24,345 nucleotides of DNA from IMG/VR virus record IMGVR_UViG_3300017990_000056, positions 1-24,345 of that record, one strand, 5' to 3'. Both the position numbers and the translations under genes were made by a program. The DNA is from a virus. Below are positions 7,723 to 24,345 of the stretch, piece by piece (positions within the stretch are counted from its first letter, which is position 1; each line of letters starts with the position of its first letter). The notes below the pieces were generated by a model. It saw only the letters and a list, made by a program, of their open reading frames with translations. It was not told the DNA's origin and did no database searches.

Positions 7723-9123
7723 ATGGCCGTCGCTTATACCACCCTGCTCGCTCGACTCGGTCGCCTCTTCGACTTCGCGAAGACAGTGCGTACGCATCAG
7801 GCGACCCTGCGGACCGAGTTCGAGGACACGATGTCCGACTATTCGGACTCGACCCGCGACCTGGTCGTGGCTCTGACCTCGAGGATCGATCGTCGGATTG
7901 ATGAGGCTGGCGGCATCGTCTCGGACATCTCGACCGACGCGACGAAGACGCTGATCGAGATGATGGACGCCGACACGACGCTTCCGGATCGCGGCGTCGG
8001 TCCTGCGGTCGAGGAGCTGATCCGTCAGTTGGCGACGGCCAGCCAGACCGTCGATCGGCCTTCGGGCGGATACGTCACGCTGCCGGCCAGTAACAAAGGG
8101 ACGGCGGGCGGCTCCAATGTCGGGTCTGGGATCCTGCTGCTGTCGGACATGGCACCACTCCGAAATCTGTCGACGTCAGAGGTCTTTGACTTCCCGTCGA
8201 TCCGATCCGAGACCGTGCGGGCGACCTGCGTTCGCGACTCGACCTCGGCAAACGTCCAGGCTGGATCCGAGGTCTTCCGGATCGAAGGACAGCGATCGGT
8301 CGGACGCCTCGACGATGAGTGGCCGCTCGGCTCAGGTACTCGCGGCGTCATCACGGCGGCATCGGCTCGGGTCGACGGCGGCCGGACGCCGAGCGTAAAC
8401 GTCTGCACGAACTCGGACTTCGAAAACTTCACAAGCAACGCGCCGGACAACTGGACCATCGTGACCGGAACCGCCGGCACGCACATCGACGACACGACGA
8501 CGGCGTACACCGGAGCGAAGGCGTTGTCGTTCATCGGCGACGGCTCGACGAACCCGAACATCAAGCAGACGCTCAACACGACCGCGGGCACGGTTGGACG
8601 GATCAACCCGGACCGGCCGTACACGATCACGGCAGCAGTGCGGTACGCAACGGCGGCTCCGACGGTGAGTCTGGTCATCTCCGTTCGGGACTCCGGCGGG
8701 ACCATCCTGCACGATTCAATCGTCGGGCGAGCGATGCAATTGACGGTTAGTTCAGCAAGTCTAACCACCTCCTACCAGTTGTTCAGTGCGGTTGTCTTTT
8801 CGCCGGTTTCGATTCCGAAGGGCTGCGTGATCGACCTTCGATTCAGCGGAAACGTCGCGAACACTTCCGAGGTCTACGTCGATGAGCTCGTAGTCGCCGA
8901 GATGCCGCGACTCCAGGCTGGCGGTCTGGGATATCAGATCGTTCGCGGTGATGACGACTTCGCGATCGAGGACACGTTCACGGCGAGCGTCACGAACAAC
9001 TGCGCGGCCGGTGATGGCGAGATCGCCCTCGAGTTCGATCGGTTCTTCGACATGGCATCGCTCGGTTTGGTGCTGCCTTCCGACACGTCTCCAACGATCG
9101 CGGACGCCACCTACATCTCCTGA
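7723..9123 (+). CDS. Virion/fibre protein with CBM-like jelly-roll module
   Basis: A 466-residue protein with AAGGA upstream of ATG 7723. Residues 1-110 are helical and charged, like a trimerising stalk. Around 111-215 lies a strand region (GGYVTLPASNKGTAGGSN). Residues about 224-393 look like a carbohydrate-binding module of the CBM4/9 type, with 'N-x-C-T-N-S-D-F-E-N-F', 'A-P-D-N-W-T-I', then a 'Y-T-G-A-K-A-L-S-F-I-G-D-G' strand and the closing 'SEVYVDELVVAE'. The C-terminal 70 residues form another beta segment. A receptor- or polysaccharide-binding role is inferred. It is the last gene of the left plus-strand block. Confidence 0.62.
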   Translation: MAVAYTTLLARLGRLFDFAKTVRTHQATLRTEFEDTMSDYSDSTRDLVVALTSRIDRRIDEAGGIVSDISTDATKTLIEMMDADTTLPDRGVGPAVEELIRQLATASQTVDRPSGGYVTLPASNKGTAGGSNVGSGILLLSDMAPLRNLSTSEVFDFPSIRSETVRATCVRDSTSANVQAGSEVFRIEGQRSVGRLDDEWPLGSGTRGVITAASARVDGGRTPSVNVCTNSDFENFTSNAPDNWTIVTGTAGTHIDDTTTAYTGAKALSFIGDGSTNPNIKQTLNTTAGTVGRINPDRPYTITAAVRYATAAPTVSLVISVRDSGGTILHDSIVGRAMQLTVSSASLTTSYQLFSAVVFSPVSIPKGCVIDLRFSGNVANTSEVYVDELVVAEMPRLQAGGLGYQIVRGDDDFAIEDTFTASVTNNCAAGDGEIALEFDRFFDMASLGLVLPSDTSPTIADATYIS

Positions 9124-14146: not shown

Positions 14147-15001
14147 ATGCAAGCTGAATTCTGCAAAATCGATTACCGAGACGCTCTAAAGATGATGATC
14201 CAATCCAAGACTCGGAATCGAAAGCTCAACGAGAAGAAGATCAAAAAGATCAGGGACGACATCGTCTCTGGAAGATGGGTCGTGAATGGCGAAGCGATCA
14301 TCTTCGACAAGGAAAACAACATCATCGATGGGCACCATCGCCTGGTCGCACTCTCTCAGACCAAAGAGCAGATCGAGTCGCTTGTCGTTCGAGGTTGCCC
14401 GATCGTTGCAATGAAGACGGTCGACATAGGACAAAGCCGGAACTTGGCCGATCAGTTTGAAATGATTCTCGGAGTGACGGGAACGATTCCGCGAATCATC
14501 AATGCCATGCGAATCGCAATCACCGGATCCTCAACTACACGATCGGGCTTCATCAATTTCGACGACGCTTCGGACTTCTATCACGCTCACGAGAACTGCG
14601 TCAGGTGGGTTCTTCAAGAAGGCTTCGCTATGCAGCCGGAACAAAGAATCAGAAAGCCAGTACCGATCAGGCGTTTCAATCGGAACGCATGTGAAATCGG
14701 TTTCGTGTGGGCGTGCCTTGGTCTGATCTGGGATCGATCCCCTTCGCTTGCCTACGAGATCATCGATCAATTCGACAAGCATCACGAAGGAAACTCATCC
14801 GAAACGATGAGTGCACTCATGAAAGTCCTGCTTCACAATCACCTCTCGCCGACAGCCCGCGTCGGTCGTTCCTGGTTCCTGCCTCGGATCATCATCGGCA
14901 TGAATCACTTCATCAACGGGACGACCACGTCAAGGATCGTTTTCCGAAACACCGAATGGCCGAAGCTCAAGCTCGACGAAATCGATGCGGAGGCATGGTG
15001 A
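14147..15001 (+). CDS. ParB/sulfiredoxin-fold protein with DGHHRL motif
   Basis: A 284-residue protein with AAAGGA before ATG 14147. Residues 25-70 read RKLNEKKIKKIRDDIVSGRW, then VNGEAIIFDKENNIIDGHHR LVAL. This is the N-terminal ParB-like domain in the stand-alone phage version, whose hallmark is 'G-x-W-x-x-N-G-E-x-I' followed by 'D-G-[QH]-H-R-L'. Members of this fold bind or cut DNA or bind nucleotides. The remaining 200 residues are helical and not recognised. It lies among replication genes, so a DNA-directed role is likely. Its base composition is somewhat AT-richer than its neighbours. Confidence 0.72.
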   Translation: MQAEFCKIDYRDALKMMIQSKTRNRKLNEKKIKKIRDDIVSGRWVVNGEAIIFDKENNIIDGHHRLVALSQTKEQIESLVVRGCPIVAMKTVDIGQSRNLADQFEMILGVTGTIPRIINAMRIAITGSSTTRSGFINFDDASDFYHAHENCVRWVLQEGFAMQPEQRIRKPVPIRRFNRNACEIGFVWACLGLIWDRSPSLAYEIIDQFDKHHEGNSSETMSALMKVLLHNHLSPTARVGRSWFLPRIIIGMNHFINGTTTSRIVFRNTEWPKLKLDEIDAEAW

Positions 15002-17278: not shown

Positions 17279-17329
17279 GACGCCCTTCTCCGGCCTCTGG
17301 GAGCCCGCAGGAAAATCCGAGGGAATCCG

Positions 17330-18202
17330 ATGCCGCAGTGGGAAATCGAGCGGACCTCGCCGGGCTGCTACCTGATCACGATGGAGGCCGACTCGCCAAC
17401 TTGGCACGCCGACTTCCTCTTCTCGTCTGACCGCCATCACGACAACGCCCACACCGACCAGCGGCTCGAACTGACCCATCTCCTCGAAGCTGAGGAGCGA
17501 GACGCCGGGATCCTCGACATCGGCGACCTCCACTGCGCGATGCAGGGCAAATGGGACAAGCGGGCCTCGACCGACGCCTGCCGACCGGAGCAACGCGAAG
17601 GCCGATACCTCGACTCGCTCGTCGACTGCGCCGCCGAGTTCTACGAGCCGTTCGCCGATCGCTGGCTCTTCATGTCGCCGGGGAACCACGAGGGCTCGAT
17701 CCTCAAACGGCATGAGACCGACCTGACCGAGCGGACCGCCGAGCGGCTCAGGGCCAAGGGCTCGCCGATCATCGTCGGCAGCTACGCCGGGTTCATCCGG
17801 TTCCGCGTCATCTACTGCGAGCGGTCATACAGCCGCGTCATGTACTACACGCACGGCAACGGCGGCGGCGGACCGATGACGCACGGCGTCCTCAACACGC
17901 GACGCCGGCAGTCCTACCTGCCGGATGCCGACATCATCTGGAGCGGTCACACGCACGACTCCTGGGTCGTCCGGCTCGCGAAGACGACGCTGACCAAGCA
18001 CGGCAACGTTCGCATCGAGGACGTGCATCACGTCTCAACGCCGGGCTACAAGGACGAGTTCTCGCCTCTCTCCGGCTGGCACATCGAGCGAGGAGCGCCG
18101 CCGAAGCCGATCGGAGCGGCGTGGCTTCGACTATCAATCGAAAGACAACCGAAGCCCGACGACTACATCTCGCTCGGTGTCGAGATCTCGGAGGCACGAT
18201 GA
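17330..18202 (+). CDS. Calcineurin-like metallophosphoesterase
   Basis: A 290-residue protein, ATG 17330 preceded by GAGGG. All metal-binding motifs of the family are visible in order: D-R-H (D34, H36), G-D-L-H (D66), G-N-H-E (N119, H120), T-H-G (H175) and G-H-T-H (H207, H209). These hold two metal ions and hydrolyse phosphoester bonds. The substrate may be protein, nucleotide or nucleic acid and cannot be told from the motifs. It lies alone after the membrane protein pair, 51 bp downstream, and before the small terminase-like gene, an unusual place. No signal peptide, so cytoplasmic. Confidence 0.82.
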   Translation: MPQWEIERTSPGCYLITMEADSPTWHADFLFSSDRHHDNAHTDQRLELTHLLEAEERDAGILDIGDLHCAMQGKWDKRASTDACRPEQREGRYLDSLVDCAAEFYEPFADRWLFMSPGNHEGSILKRHETDLTERTAERLRAKGSPIIVGSYAGFIRFRVIYCERSYSRVMYYTHGNGGGGPMTHGVLNTRRRQSYLPDADIIWSGHTHDSWVVRLAKTTLTKHGNVRIEDVHHVSTPGYKDEFSPLSGWHIERGAPPKPIGAAWLRLSIERQPKPDDYISLGVEISEAR

Positions 18203-19147: not shown

Positions 19148-19800
19148 GCTACGCAATCTCTCTCAGCGGTACGACTGTCACGATCGCCTCGCCTGGTCCG
19201 CGAGGCGTCGGCGTGCCTGACGGTGGTACGACTGGACAGACGCTTCAGAAGTCAAGCGGGACTGATTACGACTTTGCCTGGGCTAACCCCGCAGACACGA
19301 CGATCCCGAGTCTCTCGTCGCCCGCCTTTCTGTTTGCGGACAACACCGGCTACGTCGAAGACTCTACTGTCGCATTCATTCGCACCGAGCCGCTGAACGC
19401 GGTCTATCCAATGGAAACGCCGATATCTTTCGGTGGCTCTGGATCCGGAACCGATTACAGCGACAAAGTCCTCGATGGTGTAATCGGGGCCAAGTTCTAT
19501 CTTCCGCAATACCAAGATCTTTTCCCAGGGAATACGGTCGAAGTTACTGGGTCGGTAAATCTGGTCGATATGACCGGAAATTATTCGCCGCTCGGCCCAC
19601 TTACAAACGTTTCCGTAGCATTCAACAACGGTACCTGCATCGAAACGCTGAGCTCGCCGCATAGAGATGCGGACTCAGGATACGGTCTCGACACTATTCG
19701 GTATAACTTTCTTCGGGTCATGCGAAGTCACGAGGCTCAGGCTTGTAGCGCGGCCATCGATGCAATCGCAACCAACGGCATCGACGGAGGAACCTTCTAA
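19144..19800 (+). CDS. Tail fibre protein, N-terminal collagen-like start
   Basis: A 218-residue protein starting at GTG 19144 (GTGA overlap). After a beta-strand opening it has SPGPRGVGVPDGGTTGQTLQ then KSSGTDYDFAWANP, the widespread fibre motif 'G-G-T-T-G-Q-x-L-x-K-x-S-x-T-D-Y-D-x-x-W'. The rest is beta-rich, with GSGSGTDYSDKVLDGVIG and a C-terminal helix. No enzymatic motif seen. It precedes the large fibre gene and may be a separate fibre or shaft piece. Its stop shares the last base with the next start. Confidence 0.72.
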   Translation: MSYAISLSGTTVTIASPGPRGVGVPDGGTTGQTLQKSSGTDYDFAWANPADTTIPSLSSPAFLFADNTGYVEDSTVAFIRTEPLNAVYPMETPISFGGSGSGTDYSDKVLDGVIGAKFYLPQYQDLFPGNTVEVTGSVNLVDMTGNYSPLGPLTNVSVAFNNGTCIETLSSPHRDADSGYGLDTIRYNFLRVMRSHEAQACSAAIDAIATNGIDGGTF

Positions 19801-22037
19801 TGGCGTATATCAAGTCATGGCCGATTTGGTCTGAGCGAACCGGGCAGTCCGCTCTTGCTGGAGCGACCGATCCGTACGACGACGCTTTGCGAATCTTGAA
19901 CTACGGCCCGGTCGCTGGAAATGACTCCTCGATCCAGAACTTCCCGCTTTCGTCGGGCACTGGCGGGCAGGTCTATCCGGTAGCGATCAACCCTCTCCGA
20001 ACAAGGGCGGCCGGTATGGATTTCTCGCCGTTCGGCTTTCTTCCGAGAAGGCTGAACAATGCCATCAATTCATCGGCAGACGGTCTTGGTGGTACGACCA
20101 TCGATCCGTATCACGTGCCATACGCTACAGCATTGGCCGACCAAGCACTCGACATCAACTGCTTCAACCACGGGTATCGTTCTTGGGTTCGAATCGGTTG
20201 GAACCTTCTGGTTTCGTATTTCCATTTTGATTCAGGAGGTATCGATCAGGCTGCGTGGCTAGCTTTGCCCGGGCAGAACGCTTCTCAGAGAGACACCTGG
20301 TTCGCTTGCAAGGACGGCGTCGTTCGGAATTATCCAGTGCAGTTCGACACGGACTTCATGGATGACATCGAGTCTGAGGCCGGTGGTATTGGTACTTGGT
20401 GGTCAAGAACGAGCGGCCCTGGCAGCTATGATTTCGCATTTGCGAGATTCTCAGGATCAATCCCAAGCGAGGACGAAGTAGCGATTGCACGGCCTCTTCA
20501 GGGGAAGGTCTTCGATAGCTTTTCGCGTGGTCAATTTGAACAAGGCTGGGCGATCGACAGTCAAGGCCGAGTTCTTGCGGCGACCAATAGCAACACAATC
20601 ATCAATGCCGCAACTCGAGACATCAATTCACATAACTGGGGATGGTATCTAGATCCCGTCGCTATTTGGGATGGAGATTCTGGTACACCCCTGTTCATGC
20701 ACACGCATGAGGGTACCGTATGGGTTTGCAACCTTAGCAGTGTTTCCGCTTCAAATTTCAACGGGCTCGATGACGATCGAATTGAGATTATCAACACGGT
20801 CATCAACCTCCCTGCGCACGTAGCCAATCACACCGATGGAGACGGGAACGTCCGAACGATCACGCCGTATTGCGGCGAGGTGCCATCGACGCCGACCAAG
20901 AGTTCGGCATCCGGGACGATCCAGCTGAAGCGAAGCGGCACGCCGTCGAGCACGCCAAGCTCTCTTGCCGAGGGCGAGCTTGCGATCAACTACGCAGACG
21001 GAAAGCTTTTCTACGCTGATGGATCTGGTTCCGTTCAGGAGTTTGTCGCTGGAGTCGAAAGCGTCAATACCGAGACCGGTGCGGTGACGCTGACTGGCGA
21101 AGACATCGACACGACGCCGACGAGCGGTAGCACGATCACCAGCACGCTCACATCTCTTACGGCGAGCACTATCGCAAACACTCAGAGCATCGCCAATCTC
21201 GATTACACCGACATCGAGGACGCCGTCGGCAGCGGATCGGCGGATCACTCGGGCGGCACTGTCGCGGCCGGATCGATCACAGACGTGATCGCACTGACCA
21301 ACACCGAATACACCAACCTCACCGGCGGCGCAGATCCGAACACGCTCTACGTCATCACCGACGCCGCGACGAGCATCGCAGATCCTGACGACGTTACGAT
21401 CACCTCTGCTGCGACGAATGACTTCCTTGTCTTTGATGCGAGCGGAGACTGGGTCGACAAGACGCCTGCACAGGTTCGGGCGATTCTCGATCTAGAAGTG
21501 GGAACCGATGTCCAAGCCTACGACGCGGAGCTTGCCGCGATCGCCGGGTTGACTTCGGCCGCTGGCAAGGCAATCGAGTTCACCGGATCTGGAACGGCGG
21601 CGACCTTCGACATCACAACCGCCGGCAAGGCGCTACTCGATGATGCCGATGCAGCTGCTCAGCGAACGACGCTTGGCCTCGGGACGCTGGCGACCGCTTC
21701 GACCATCACCGACTCCTACGTCGGTCACATCGAAGCACCGGAAGACACGACCTACTACATCGATCCAAAGGTTGCGGAAGCTCGGGAGATCACCGGCGTC
21801 TACTTCGCCTGGACAGCCGGAGCGTCGCCAGACGGCGACATCGATGTTCAGATCGGCGGGACGTCGGTGCTCAGTTCGCTCGGTCGTATGAACTCTGGAT
21901 CAAGCTTTACCGGTACGCTCAAGACCGACGGCACCGAAGACGTTGCGGCTGATGCCGTCATCACCGTCGTGCTCGGTGCGACGAACGGCGTCGCCGACGT
22001 GACTGACCTTCGGTTCTCAGTGGAGTACGCACAATGA
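19800..22037 (+). CDS. Tail fibre with trypsin-like serine protease domain
   Basis: A 745-residue protein, ATG 19800 overlapping the previous TAA. Residues about 110-345 resemble a chymotrypsin-fold protease: strand NLLVSYFHF with His142, SYDFAFARFSGSIPSEDEVA with Asp211 in the 'D-x-A-x-x-R-x' loop, and WDGDSGTPLFM with Ser294 in GDSG. Residues 371-412 (GTIQLKRSGTPSST, LAEGELAINYADGKLFY) form an Mtd-like intertwined segment. From 415 to 660 are fibre repeats, including GTDVQAYDAELAAIAGLTSA and LLDDADAAAQRTTLGLG. The last 85 residues are a beta head. Catalytic assignment of His142 is the weakest point. Confidence 0.65.
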   Translation: MAYIKSWPIWSERTGQSALAGATDPYDDALRILNYGPVAGNDSSIQNFPLSSGTGGQVYPVAINPLRTRAAGMDFSPFGFLPRRLNNAINSSADGLGGTTIDPYHVPYATALADQALDINCFNHGYRSWVRIGWNLLVSYFHFDSGGIDQAAWLALPGQNASQRDTWFACKDGVVRNYPVQFDTDFMDDIESEAGGIGTWWSRTSGPGSYDFAFARFSGSIPSEDEVAIARPLQGKVFDSFSRGQFEQGWAIDSQGRVLAATNSNTIINAATRDINSHNWGWYLDPVAIWDGDSGTPLFMHTHEGTVWVCNLSSVSASNFNGLDDDRIEIINTVINLPAHVANHTDGDGNVRTITPYCGEVPSTPTKSSASGTIQLKRSGTPSSTPSSLAEGELAINYADGKLFYADGSGSVQEFVAGVESVNTETGAVTLTGEDIDTTPTSGSTITSTLTSLTASTIANTQSIANLDYTDIEDAVGSGSADHSGGTVAAGSITDVIALTNTEYTNLTGGADPNTLYVITDAATSIADPDDVTITSAATNDFLVFDASGDWVDKTPAQVRAILDLEVGTDVQAYDAELAAIAGLTSAAGKAIEFTGSGTAATFDITTAGKALLDDADAAAQRTTLGLGTLATASTITDSYVGHIEAPEDTTYYIDPKVAEAREITGVYFAWTAGASPDGDIDVQIGGTSVLSSLGRMNSGSSFTGTLKTDGTEDVAADAVITVVLGATNGVADVTDLRFSVEYAQ

Positions 22038-22447
22038 GTCCGCGATGGTTGTATTGGCCGGATGTTGTATCGTTGGCTGATTTCACCGCTTCTGGAACAA
22101 CGGATGTGGCAGATGGAACAGGTGGATCAAGAGACAACGATCCAACGACGAATCCATCGGAAGCAGACCTTTCATTTATCACGTTCCGAGGGACCGACAA
22201 CGCAAGCCCTCGGATGTTCTTTGTTTTTAGTGTGCCGGCTTCTCGCGATACATTTGTATCGAACTATCCTGACGGATCATCGCTTGCTTTGGTTTTGGGT
22301 GGATCGACCTATACAGCATCCTCCATAAGCTGGAACAGCTTTGATAGCGGAGGAAGTGGATATTGTCTCCTTTCTTCAGCTCAGTTTGATTCTTGGCCTG
22401 CAAATGTGCCGTCTGGAACCTCGTATACATTCGAGATCTTCGTATGA
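22034..22447 (+). CDS. Small virion/adhesin protein, unrecognised
   Basis: A 137-residue protein, ATG 22034 as ATGA overlap. It is beta-rich with Gly/Ser/Thr/Asn turns, for example 'L-x-F-I-T-F-R-G-T-D-N' and GGSTYTASSISWNSFDSGGS. No enzyme motif or membrane segment. Codons become noticeably AT-richer here than in the upstream fibre gene, consistent with exchange at the adhesin locus. Family not recognised. Coupled to the following tailspike. Confidence 0.65.
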   Translation: MSPRWLYWPDVVSLADFTASGTTDVADGTGGSRDNDPTTNPSEADLSFITFRGTDNASPRMFFVFSVPASRDTFVSNYPDGSSLALVLGGSTYTASSISWNSFDSGGSGYCLLSSAQFDSWPANVPSGTSYTFEIFV

Positions 22448-23982
22448 AAGTTATGATCGGCTCAAGCGTTGCCTCTGTAAAATATGGTGCATCTGACACA
22501 ACAATTCAAAAGGGCGAACCGTCAGAAAGTATTGGCGCGAACTCTTTGAGAATTGCGATCGTCGACGGGCAGGTCGTGGAAGATTCTTCGATTGTCGTCG
22601 ATGTTGTTGCGTTCACATACGACCCGTCGGCAAGTATGATCACGCCAATCGTCAACGGTGTGACAACATCGCAAACAACCTTGCAGTGGCCGTCCGTCGG
22701 TGGGAATTCAGTTTCGGTATTCCGCGCAACTGTTCCACTTTCTATCGGAACAAACGAAATCACGGCTGTTTCGGGTGAGTCTGTCGACTCAATTGTTGTA
22801 TATCGAAAGAATTCCCTTAGCACAATCGGCGTTTCAAATGCAAATGATGCGAAGCAAGCGATACAAGACGCCTTTGACGGAACAAGCAATCACGATATTA
22901 TTGAGATCAACTATACGGAGCCAGATTTTGGTTTCAATGTTCTCGACAATATCGGATCAGGACTATCCGCATCTCGTGAGGGCTTCTTGACGGTCAAGCC
23001 AGGAACTGGATCAATCGGTTTCAACACCGACGGTGCTGTTGGCACAAATGATAGATTTATTCCAAAGCTTCCAAGCGGATGCGATTTGCATATCTATGAT
23101 GCCCAGATAGGATCAACTTCGTCAAATACGGCTGTTGGATATTACGATCTGACCAATCATGCAGGACGGCTGTGGTTTGATAATTGCTCAATTTCAGGAA
23201 AATACAACGTCACAGATTATACCGAATCCGATCAGTTCGATCCTCAATACTCGACGCAATGGCCGAGATCAATCACTGGCGACAATCCAGTGTCCTTTAC
23301 TGAATGCGAATGGTATGGCGTGCCTTTCAAGCAGTGTGGAGTGCAACTAGAGCTAGTGCGCGATTGTGTTTTTCGTCAGATTCGCGGTGATGTGAACGAC
23401 CTTGGCAAGCTTGTTGTCAACATATACTGCGAAGATCTAAAGGGAATTACATATCCTGGCGGCGCAGATGTTACGCATCAGGATTTGTTTCAGATATGGG
23501 GACAGTCAACAGGATGGCAGCCAAACGGTTCGATCTTTTACGGATGCAAGGTTGGTCAAAATCTGATTGCTGAGTTTGATGGGCAACCGATCTTTTTCAG
23601 CCGAACATATAATCCATCATATTCTGGAATTGTCGTAGATTCGGTTTTTGTCGATCAACCAGCAGACACACCTAGGCAAACTCAATTTGCTGGTGTTTGT
23701 AGGAATAGCCGGATTTCAAATGTCTCGCATCCGACAAAGCCAGTGACTTTTCGGATGTATGCGACTGGAACAGATACAGCGTTCGAACCTGATTCAACCG
23801 TTTTTTTCGACAACATTGATTCTCAATACGTTGCCAAAGTTCTTTCTACTGGCAATGTCGCCATAAAAATTACCGATGTATCTGATCCAAACGATATCTC
23901 TCCAGAGCTAAATGCAGATACAGATTTGCAGGGTGCTACTGGAGAAACTCCCTCGTTTAGCTCTTGGAAGATCAACGAGTGA
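22444..23982 (+). CDS. Beta-helix tailspike-like protein
   Basis: A 512-residue protein, start ATG 22444 (ATGA overlap); in-frame codons from 22393 lie in the previous gene. Residues 1-130 hold an Ig-like beta domain (IVVDVVAFTYDPSASMITPI). From about 135, AKQAIQDAFDGTSNHDIIEI opens a stretch of short repeated strands with Asn/Gly turns, such as LWFDNCSISGKYNV, VSFTECEWYGVPFKQCGVQL and THQDLFQIWGQ, the pattern of right-handed parallel beta-helices used by phage tailspikes to bind or cut surface polysaccharide. Catalytic residues cannot be assigned. Codon use is clearly AT-richer than in the core genome, a sign of transfer. Confidence 0.65.
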   Translation: MKVMIGSSVASVKYGASDTTIQKGEPSESIGANSLRIAIVDGQVVEDSSIVVDVVAFTYDPSASMITPIVNGVTTSQTTLQWPSVGGNSVSVFRATVPLSIGTNEITAVSGESVDSIVVYRKNSLSTIGVSNANDAKQAIQDAFDGTSNHDIIEINYTEPDFGFNVLDNIGSGLSASREGFLTVKPGTGSIGFNTDGAVGTNDRFIPKLPSGCDLHIYDAQIGSTSSNTAVGYYDLTNHAGRLWFDNCSISGKYNVTDYTESDQFDPQYSTQWPRSITGDNPVSFTECEWYGVPFKQCGVQLELVRDCVFRQIRGDVNDLGKLVVNIYCEDLKGITYPGGADVTHQDLFQIWGQSTGWQPNGSIFYGCKVGQNLIAEFDGQPIFFSRTYNPSYSGIVVDSVFVDQPADTPRQTQFAGVCRNSRISNVSHPTKPVTFRMYATGTDTAFEPDSTVFFDNIDSQYVAKVLSTGNVAIKITDVSDPNDISPELNADTDLQGATGETPSFSSWKINE

Positions 23983-24038
23983 ACACCGAATCAATCCCAA
24001 TCTCCGACCTCACGCCTGATCCGGCGAACGCTCGTTAA
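23979..24038 (+). pseudogene. Truncated ParB-like gene at a sequence junction
   Basis: GTG 23979 overlaps the tailspike stop as GTGA, the same coupling style used elsewhere in this phage. The frame reads 19 residues, NTESIPISDLTPDPANAR after the start, then TAA 24036-24038. 'I-x-D-L-x-P-D-P-x-N-A-R' is the opening motif of ParB-like N-terminal domains of phage ParB and ParB-methyltransferase proteins, normally followed by basic residues and a long helix. It is cut exactly inside the motif where AT-rich sequence begins. This is either a broken gene or the end of authentic sequence in a chimeric contig. Confidence 0.62.
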
Positions 24039-24113
24039 ACAACTAACCTTAACCCTCCCTTGGCTACCGCTAGGGGAGTGTTTTATTTTAACTTATAACT
24101 AAGGAGATTCCTT
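24039..24113 (+). other. AT-rich intergenic start of compositionally foreign DNA
   Basis: From about 24036 the GC-rich composition gives way to AT-rich sequence (for example TTTTATTTTAACTTATAACT). It holds a terminator and an AAGGAG at 24101-24106 before ATG 24114. I see no coding sequence in it. Confidence 0.65.
24051..24089 (+). terminator. Rho-independent terminator in the AT-rich segment
   Basis: CTCCCT pairs with GGGGAG (one G-U) around the loop TGGCTACCGCTA, extended by three more pairs beyond one mismatch, and is followed by TTTTATTTTA. The terminator lies between the truncated ParB-like frame and the next gene. It probably belongs to whatever gene originally ended at this point in the AT-rich source. 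Confidence 0.7.
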
Positions 24114-24345
24114 ATGGATACATTTTTCTTTTTAGTGGATGGTACTAGTGGTGATCTACTTACTGTAGATGCTAGTGGTACTTATCTAGCTTATGAAGCT
24201 GATAGTGATGAAAGTGGTGGAGGAACAGTAACGTATACTATTACTCCTAACTTTGATACCTCAGCTTTTGATTTACCTTCAGATATTGAAGTATGGTATA
24301 GTAAAAGAGGGGAAGGTTTTCCCTTTAGTCGTACTGGTGGTTTTA
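24114..24345 (+). CDS. AT-rich gene of unknown function, 5' part
   Basis: ATG 24114 has AAGGAG at 24101-24106 and opens a frame that runs 77 codons to the window edge without a stop. It reads MDTFFFLVDGTSGDLLTVDA, then a Gly-rich turn and VTYTITPNFDTSAFDLPSDI, suggesting beta strands. Nearly every codon ends in A or T (GAT, GGT, ACT, AGT), in sharp contrast to the rest of the window. Possibly a virion or accessory protein of another phage. No family recognised. Confidence 0.6.
   Translation, partial: MDTFFFLVDGTSGDLLTVDASGTYLAYEADSDESGGGTVTYTITPNFDTSAFDLPSDIEVWYSKRGEGFPFSRTGGF

Follow-up and report, generated by a model that had tools for sequence, protein, structure and literature searches.

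An IMG/VR phage contig whose right end is most likely a chimeric joint inside a ParB-methylase gene

The ParB-terminase (ParB-Tls) locus of siphoviruses, as found for example in Paracoccus phages, is characterized by ParB-methylase fusions encoded upstream of the terminase (PMC6536676). A different kind of precedent comes from simulated viromes, in which fewer than 5% of the contigs measuring at least 10 kb are chimeric (PMC5610896), a rate high enough for such contigs to be common in a collection of millions. The DNA analyzed here (the window) is the whole 24,345-bp linear virus record IMGVR_UViG_3300017990_000056, and the site of interest lies at its right end. The ParB-Tls arrangement (PMC6536676) is matched by a related phage record in which a ParB_N + N6_N4_Mtase gene sits directly upstream of the terminase; in contrast, the window contains the first 19 codons only, without the remainder of the gene and without the terminase. 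Like the chimeric contigs of simulated viromes (PMC5610896), the window appears to combine two unrelated genomes in one contig, joined near one of its ends. It differs from them in that its second parent was not found in the collections, so that no common sequence can be demonstrated at the joint.

The related record, IMGVR_UViG_3300005512_000199 (31,969 bp; hereafter the relative), is a close one. It is collinear with the window and shares 68–79% nucleotide identity with it over most of the window's length, the RecT-like protein being 80% and the metallophosphoesterase 89% identical. Because its own two ends overlap (183 bp at 95% identity), the relative represents about one full circle, or genome. 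Base 1 of the window aligns to position 26482 of the relative, and the window has no counterpart of positions 17377–26481 (~9.1 kb), which encode the rest of the methylase, the terminase, the portal, and the capsid. The two ends of the window thus flank the missing packaging and head module, indicating that the contig broke at both sides of this module; the right-hand break is the attachment point of 311 bp of foreign DNA. Outside this pair of records, Synechococcus phage S-LBS1, in which no ParB gene is annotated, has the RecT-like protein in common with the window (40%). A metallophosphoesterase with 54% identity also occurs in a pond MAG of the Alphaproteobacteria (6.4-kb contig), which hints weakly at the host group.

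The features of the right end are as follows.

22450–23982, plus strand: fibre-like gene directly upstream of the ParB gene (in the list of open reading frames it starts from an earlier TTG at 22393)
23979–24034, plus strand: first 56 bases of a ParB_N + N6_N4 methylase gene, from homology to the relative
24034–24036, no strand: joint, from position-by-position comparison with the relative
24035–24345, plus strand: foreign AT-rich contig end of 311 bp, from its outlying composition and the lack of a match in phage records or the relative
24055–24092, plus strand: intrinsic terminator of the foreign segment, with a stem and a T-rich tail
24100–24106, plus strand: Shine-Dalgarno sequence TAAGGAG, 7 nt before the ATG, from the sequence
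24114–24345, plus strand: beginning of an AT-rich gene, open over 77 aa and cut off by the contig end, an open reading frame with no relatives found

The GTG at 23979–23981 overlaps the TGA of the preceding gene (23980–23982) by four bases (GTGA), and the frame that it opens reads VNTESIPISDLTPDPANAR, comprising 19 codons in all before a TAA at 24036–24038. The original prediction of a GTGA-coupled, ParB-like frame that stops inside its motif was accurate as to coordinates and motif, and its ParB identity is borne out by homology. Positions 23978–24034 match positions 17320–17376 of the relative at 86% identity (57 bp, E 3e-12), and this stretch is the start of a 504-aa ParB_N + N6_N4_Mtase gene, which opens with the same GTGAACACCGAA and the same GTGA coupling and thereby provides the intact homologue that the original prediction had proposed to look for. 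The 504-aa protein is recognized as N6_N4_Mtase with an E value of 2e-24, and as ParB_N with 4e-5, slightly below Pfam's cut-off; its gene is followed 3′ by terminase, portal, and major capsid genes. Taken by itself, the 19-residue frame has no Pfam match and yielded no matches as a tblastn or phmmer query. Judged by its homology to the relative, the 19-codon frame is the start of a ParB gene: an in-frame ParB_N start is present in the window, whereas the methylase domain and a directly downstream terminase, which complete the ParB-methylase of a ParB-terminase locus, are absent from it.

A natural gene end at this point had been called improbable, and the intact 504-aa gene of the relative as well as a wider survey of the motif agree with that assessment. 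When a degenerate DNA pattern for DLTPDPANAR was run on IMG/VR, 23 stretches matched, the relative among them (a longer first version of the pattern had given no matches). In all 23, [K/Q]H comes next and the frame reads through the position of the joint, and the motif-bearing frames, where they do not run off their contig, measure 165 to 529 residues from stop to stop. A separate observation concerns four of the IMG/VR contigs, which have distinct record names (one is 31,332 bp long) and begin at the identical base, 97 bp before DLTPDPANAR, while a fifth contig end near the ParB motif differs from these by one base. Such common ends just upstream of ParB suggest a fixed physical genome end (cos-like) in that phage group.

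Where the homology stops can be read off base by base. Up to 24034, 48 of 56 positions agree between window and relative, but only 11 of 34 do so thereafter, identity falling to chance from 24035 on; at the joint itself, the third base of an arginine codon and the stop codon TAA differ from the relative, which continues CGC AAG CAC. The joint is therefore placed at 24034/24035, 311 bp from the contig end, which fits the earlier advice to distrust the sequence right of about 24035. A left part collinear with the relative and a right part that is not, and that differs in composition, thus meet at a single point, as expected of a chimeric contig. The left part occurs without the right part in the relative, and the right part was not found anywhere in the searches. 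The proposal that two unrelated DNAs are joined inside a ParB gene is supported by this end of homology and by the accompanying break in composition. The original prediction had also named related phages with the same joint and the same AT-rich gene as the observation that would speak against it; neither is carried by any relative found.

The compositional evidence requires some qualification. The window has a GC content of ~60% over most of the phage, but this drops to 43–48%, or about 46% overall, from about 22 kb, within the fibre-like genes, contradicting the description of the DNA left of the joint as GC-rich. Since GC falls well before the joint, the shift toward AT is not in itself the evidence, and the truncation of the ParB gene carries more weight. 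The start of the ParB gene has a GC content of 58%, and homology to the relative resumes exactly there. The last 311 bp, with 37.0% GC, lie below every other stretch of that length in the window (minimum 41.2%) and in the relative (minimum 46.3%). The third-position GC content of the right-hand frame is 0.12, consistent with the predicted use of A/T-ending codons, whereas every stretch of 77 codons within the fibre genes at 19800–23979 reaches at least 0.30. Likewise, the trinucleotide distance between the last 311 bp and the adjacent low-GC module is 0.72 as compared to at most 0.37 within the module. An abrupt change of composition and codon use at the joint, as originally claimed, is thus seen in GC, third-position GC, and trinucleotides; codon choice does not alone set the frame apart, its score of −1.317 against the fibre genes lying above their minimum of −1.337.

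The right-hand segment is nevertheless well formed. The AT-rich terminator noted to the right of the stop codon has a 10-bp stem (24055–24078, with a loop of 4) and a predicted energy of −18.6 kcal/mol (z = −4.0), and 77 open codons would arise by chance in 0.3% of shuffled sequences. The segment has no 14-mer in common with the relative, and a DNA search of the collections, which may omit records very near this genome, gave no match. The 77-aa frame had no relatives by protein search in phage records, IMG/VR, and species genomes, and nothing resembling it was present in Pfam, PHROGs, PDB, or 12 records reached through loci; single-sequence fold prediction gave a pLDDT of 50. Together with its terminator and Shine-Dalgarno sequence, the frame looks like genuine gene sequence of another low-GC genome, and derivation of this DNA from a second phage is plausible.

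We consider it probable, at roughly 0.75, that the contig represents part of a phage genome with a chimeric tail joined in the library or during assembly at 24034/24035. Bases 1–24034 would then belong to one phage related to the relative, stopping 56 bases into the ParB-methylase gene, with which the packaging module begins, and bases 24035–24345 to an unrelated low-GC genome, probably of another phage or a bacterium in the sample. The right-hand DNA would start at or near the end of one gene, cross the terminator of that gene, and enter the next, and the two DNAs would have been united in the library or in assembly. This explanation is favored by the closeness of the joint to the contig end, by the fact that it cuts a gene coupled to its neighbors and would set a strong terminator before the terminase genes, and by the relative, which lacks the joint. 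Chimera formation in a de Bruijn assembly requires a k-mer common to both parents. The main weakness of this explanation is that, as the right-hand parent was not found, no common k-mer can be demonstrated at the joint and a chimeric fragment has to be assumed. We infer an origin of the joint in vitro or in silico, not within a phage; the joint is most likely an artefact of assembly or library at a contig end and not new biology.

Also counting against a chimera is the fact that the fibre genes immediately left of ParB (19.2–23.98 kb) also differ from those of the relative, which points to a naturally recombining neighborhood. A real recombination or insertion event would have placed a cargo gene, AT-rich and equipped with a terminator and a ribosome-binding site of its own, into the packaging-linked ParB-methylase of a live phage, ending the latter after 19 codons, with the packaging genes lying beyond the contig end. 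The orderly build of the right segment (terminator, Shine-Dalgarno sequence, open frame) and the mosaic nature of the adjoining fibre region agree with such an event, and the gene at 14147–14998, which has no counterpart in the relative, shows that this lineage gains or loses genes. It is nonetheless unlikely, given that a coding motif, intact in other respects, is cut through at a contig end, that no repeats or signs of an integrase were noted at the joint, and that the terminator would stop transcription into the terminase genes located 3′ of the methylase in the relative.

If the 19-codon frame were instead a chance frame or a leader peptide, the gene end, the terminator, and the next gene would all be the phage's own. 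This would account for a short frame that is complete and has a strong terminator behind it, but the match to the start of the relative's ParB-methylase gene, its collinearity, and the identical GTGA coupling strongly disfavor it, as does the coincidence of the loss of homology with the change in composition; we regard it as very improbable. Least probable is a prophage boundary, with host DNA making up the right-hand segment. Prophage edges can show up as a sharp change in composition; here, the edge would fall inside a gene of the packaging module, beyond which essential genes are missing, the GC content (37% versus about 60% for most of the phage) is far apart, and the peptide patterns used matched none of the species genomes. 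With the chimeric joint preferred, the final 311 bp of this public record are flagged as unreliable, and annotations are spared both a spurious 77-aa gene and a truncated ParB that is equally spurious. The missing part of the window's genome is the packaging and head module. Apart from these two points, record reliability and missing module, the case is ordinary.

Further differences in gene content exist between window and relative. The fibre-like gene upstream of ParB (22450–23982) is not homologous to the gene at the corresponding place in the relative: it has no Pfam or PHROG match, blastp gave no real match when it was compared with the 836-aa and 216-aa proteins of the relative, and the 745-aa and 529-aa fibre proteins returned nothing when used as queries. 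Across the tail-fibre-like module (19150–23977), which has 43% GC at its end, homology to the relative is confined to about 21495–22061, and the module is an exchangeable region, probably concerned with host range, whose end coincides exactly with the ParB start codon. Further left, the gene at 14147–14998 encodes a 284-aa protein matching phrog_5931 (E 3e-28) and, weakly, a ParB-like partition protein family. At its site, the relative has only ~17 bp (8762–8779) between collinear flanks; the gene was gained or lost between the two. Finally, the neighboring genes at 1297–1725 and 1729–2190 both match one region of the relative (about 27875–28070), and the pair (1297–2190) apparently arose by tandem duplication of a gene for a probable tail protein.
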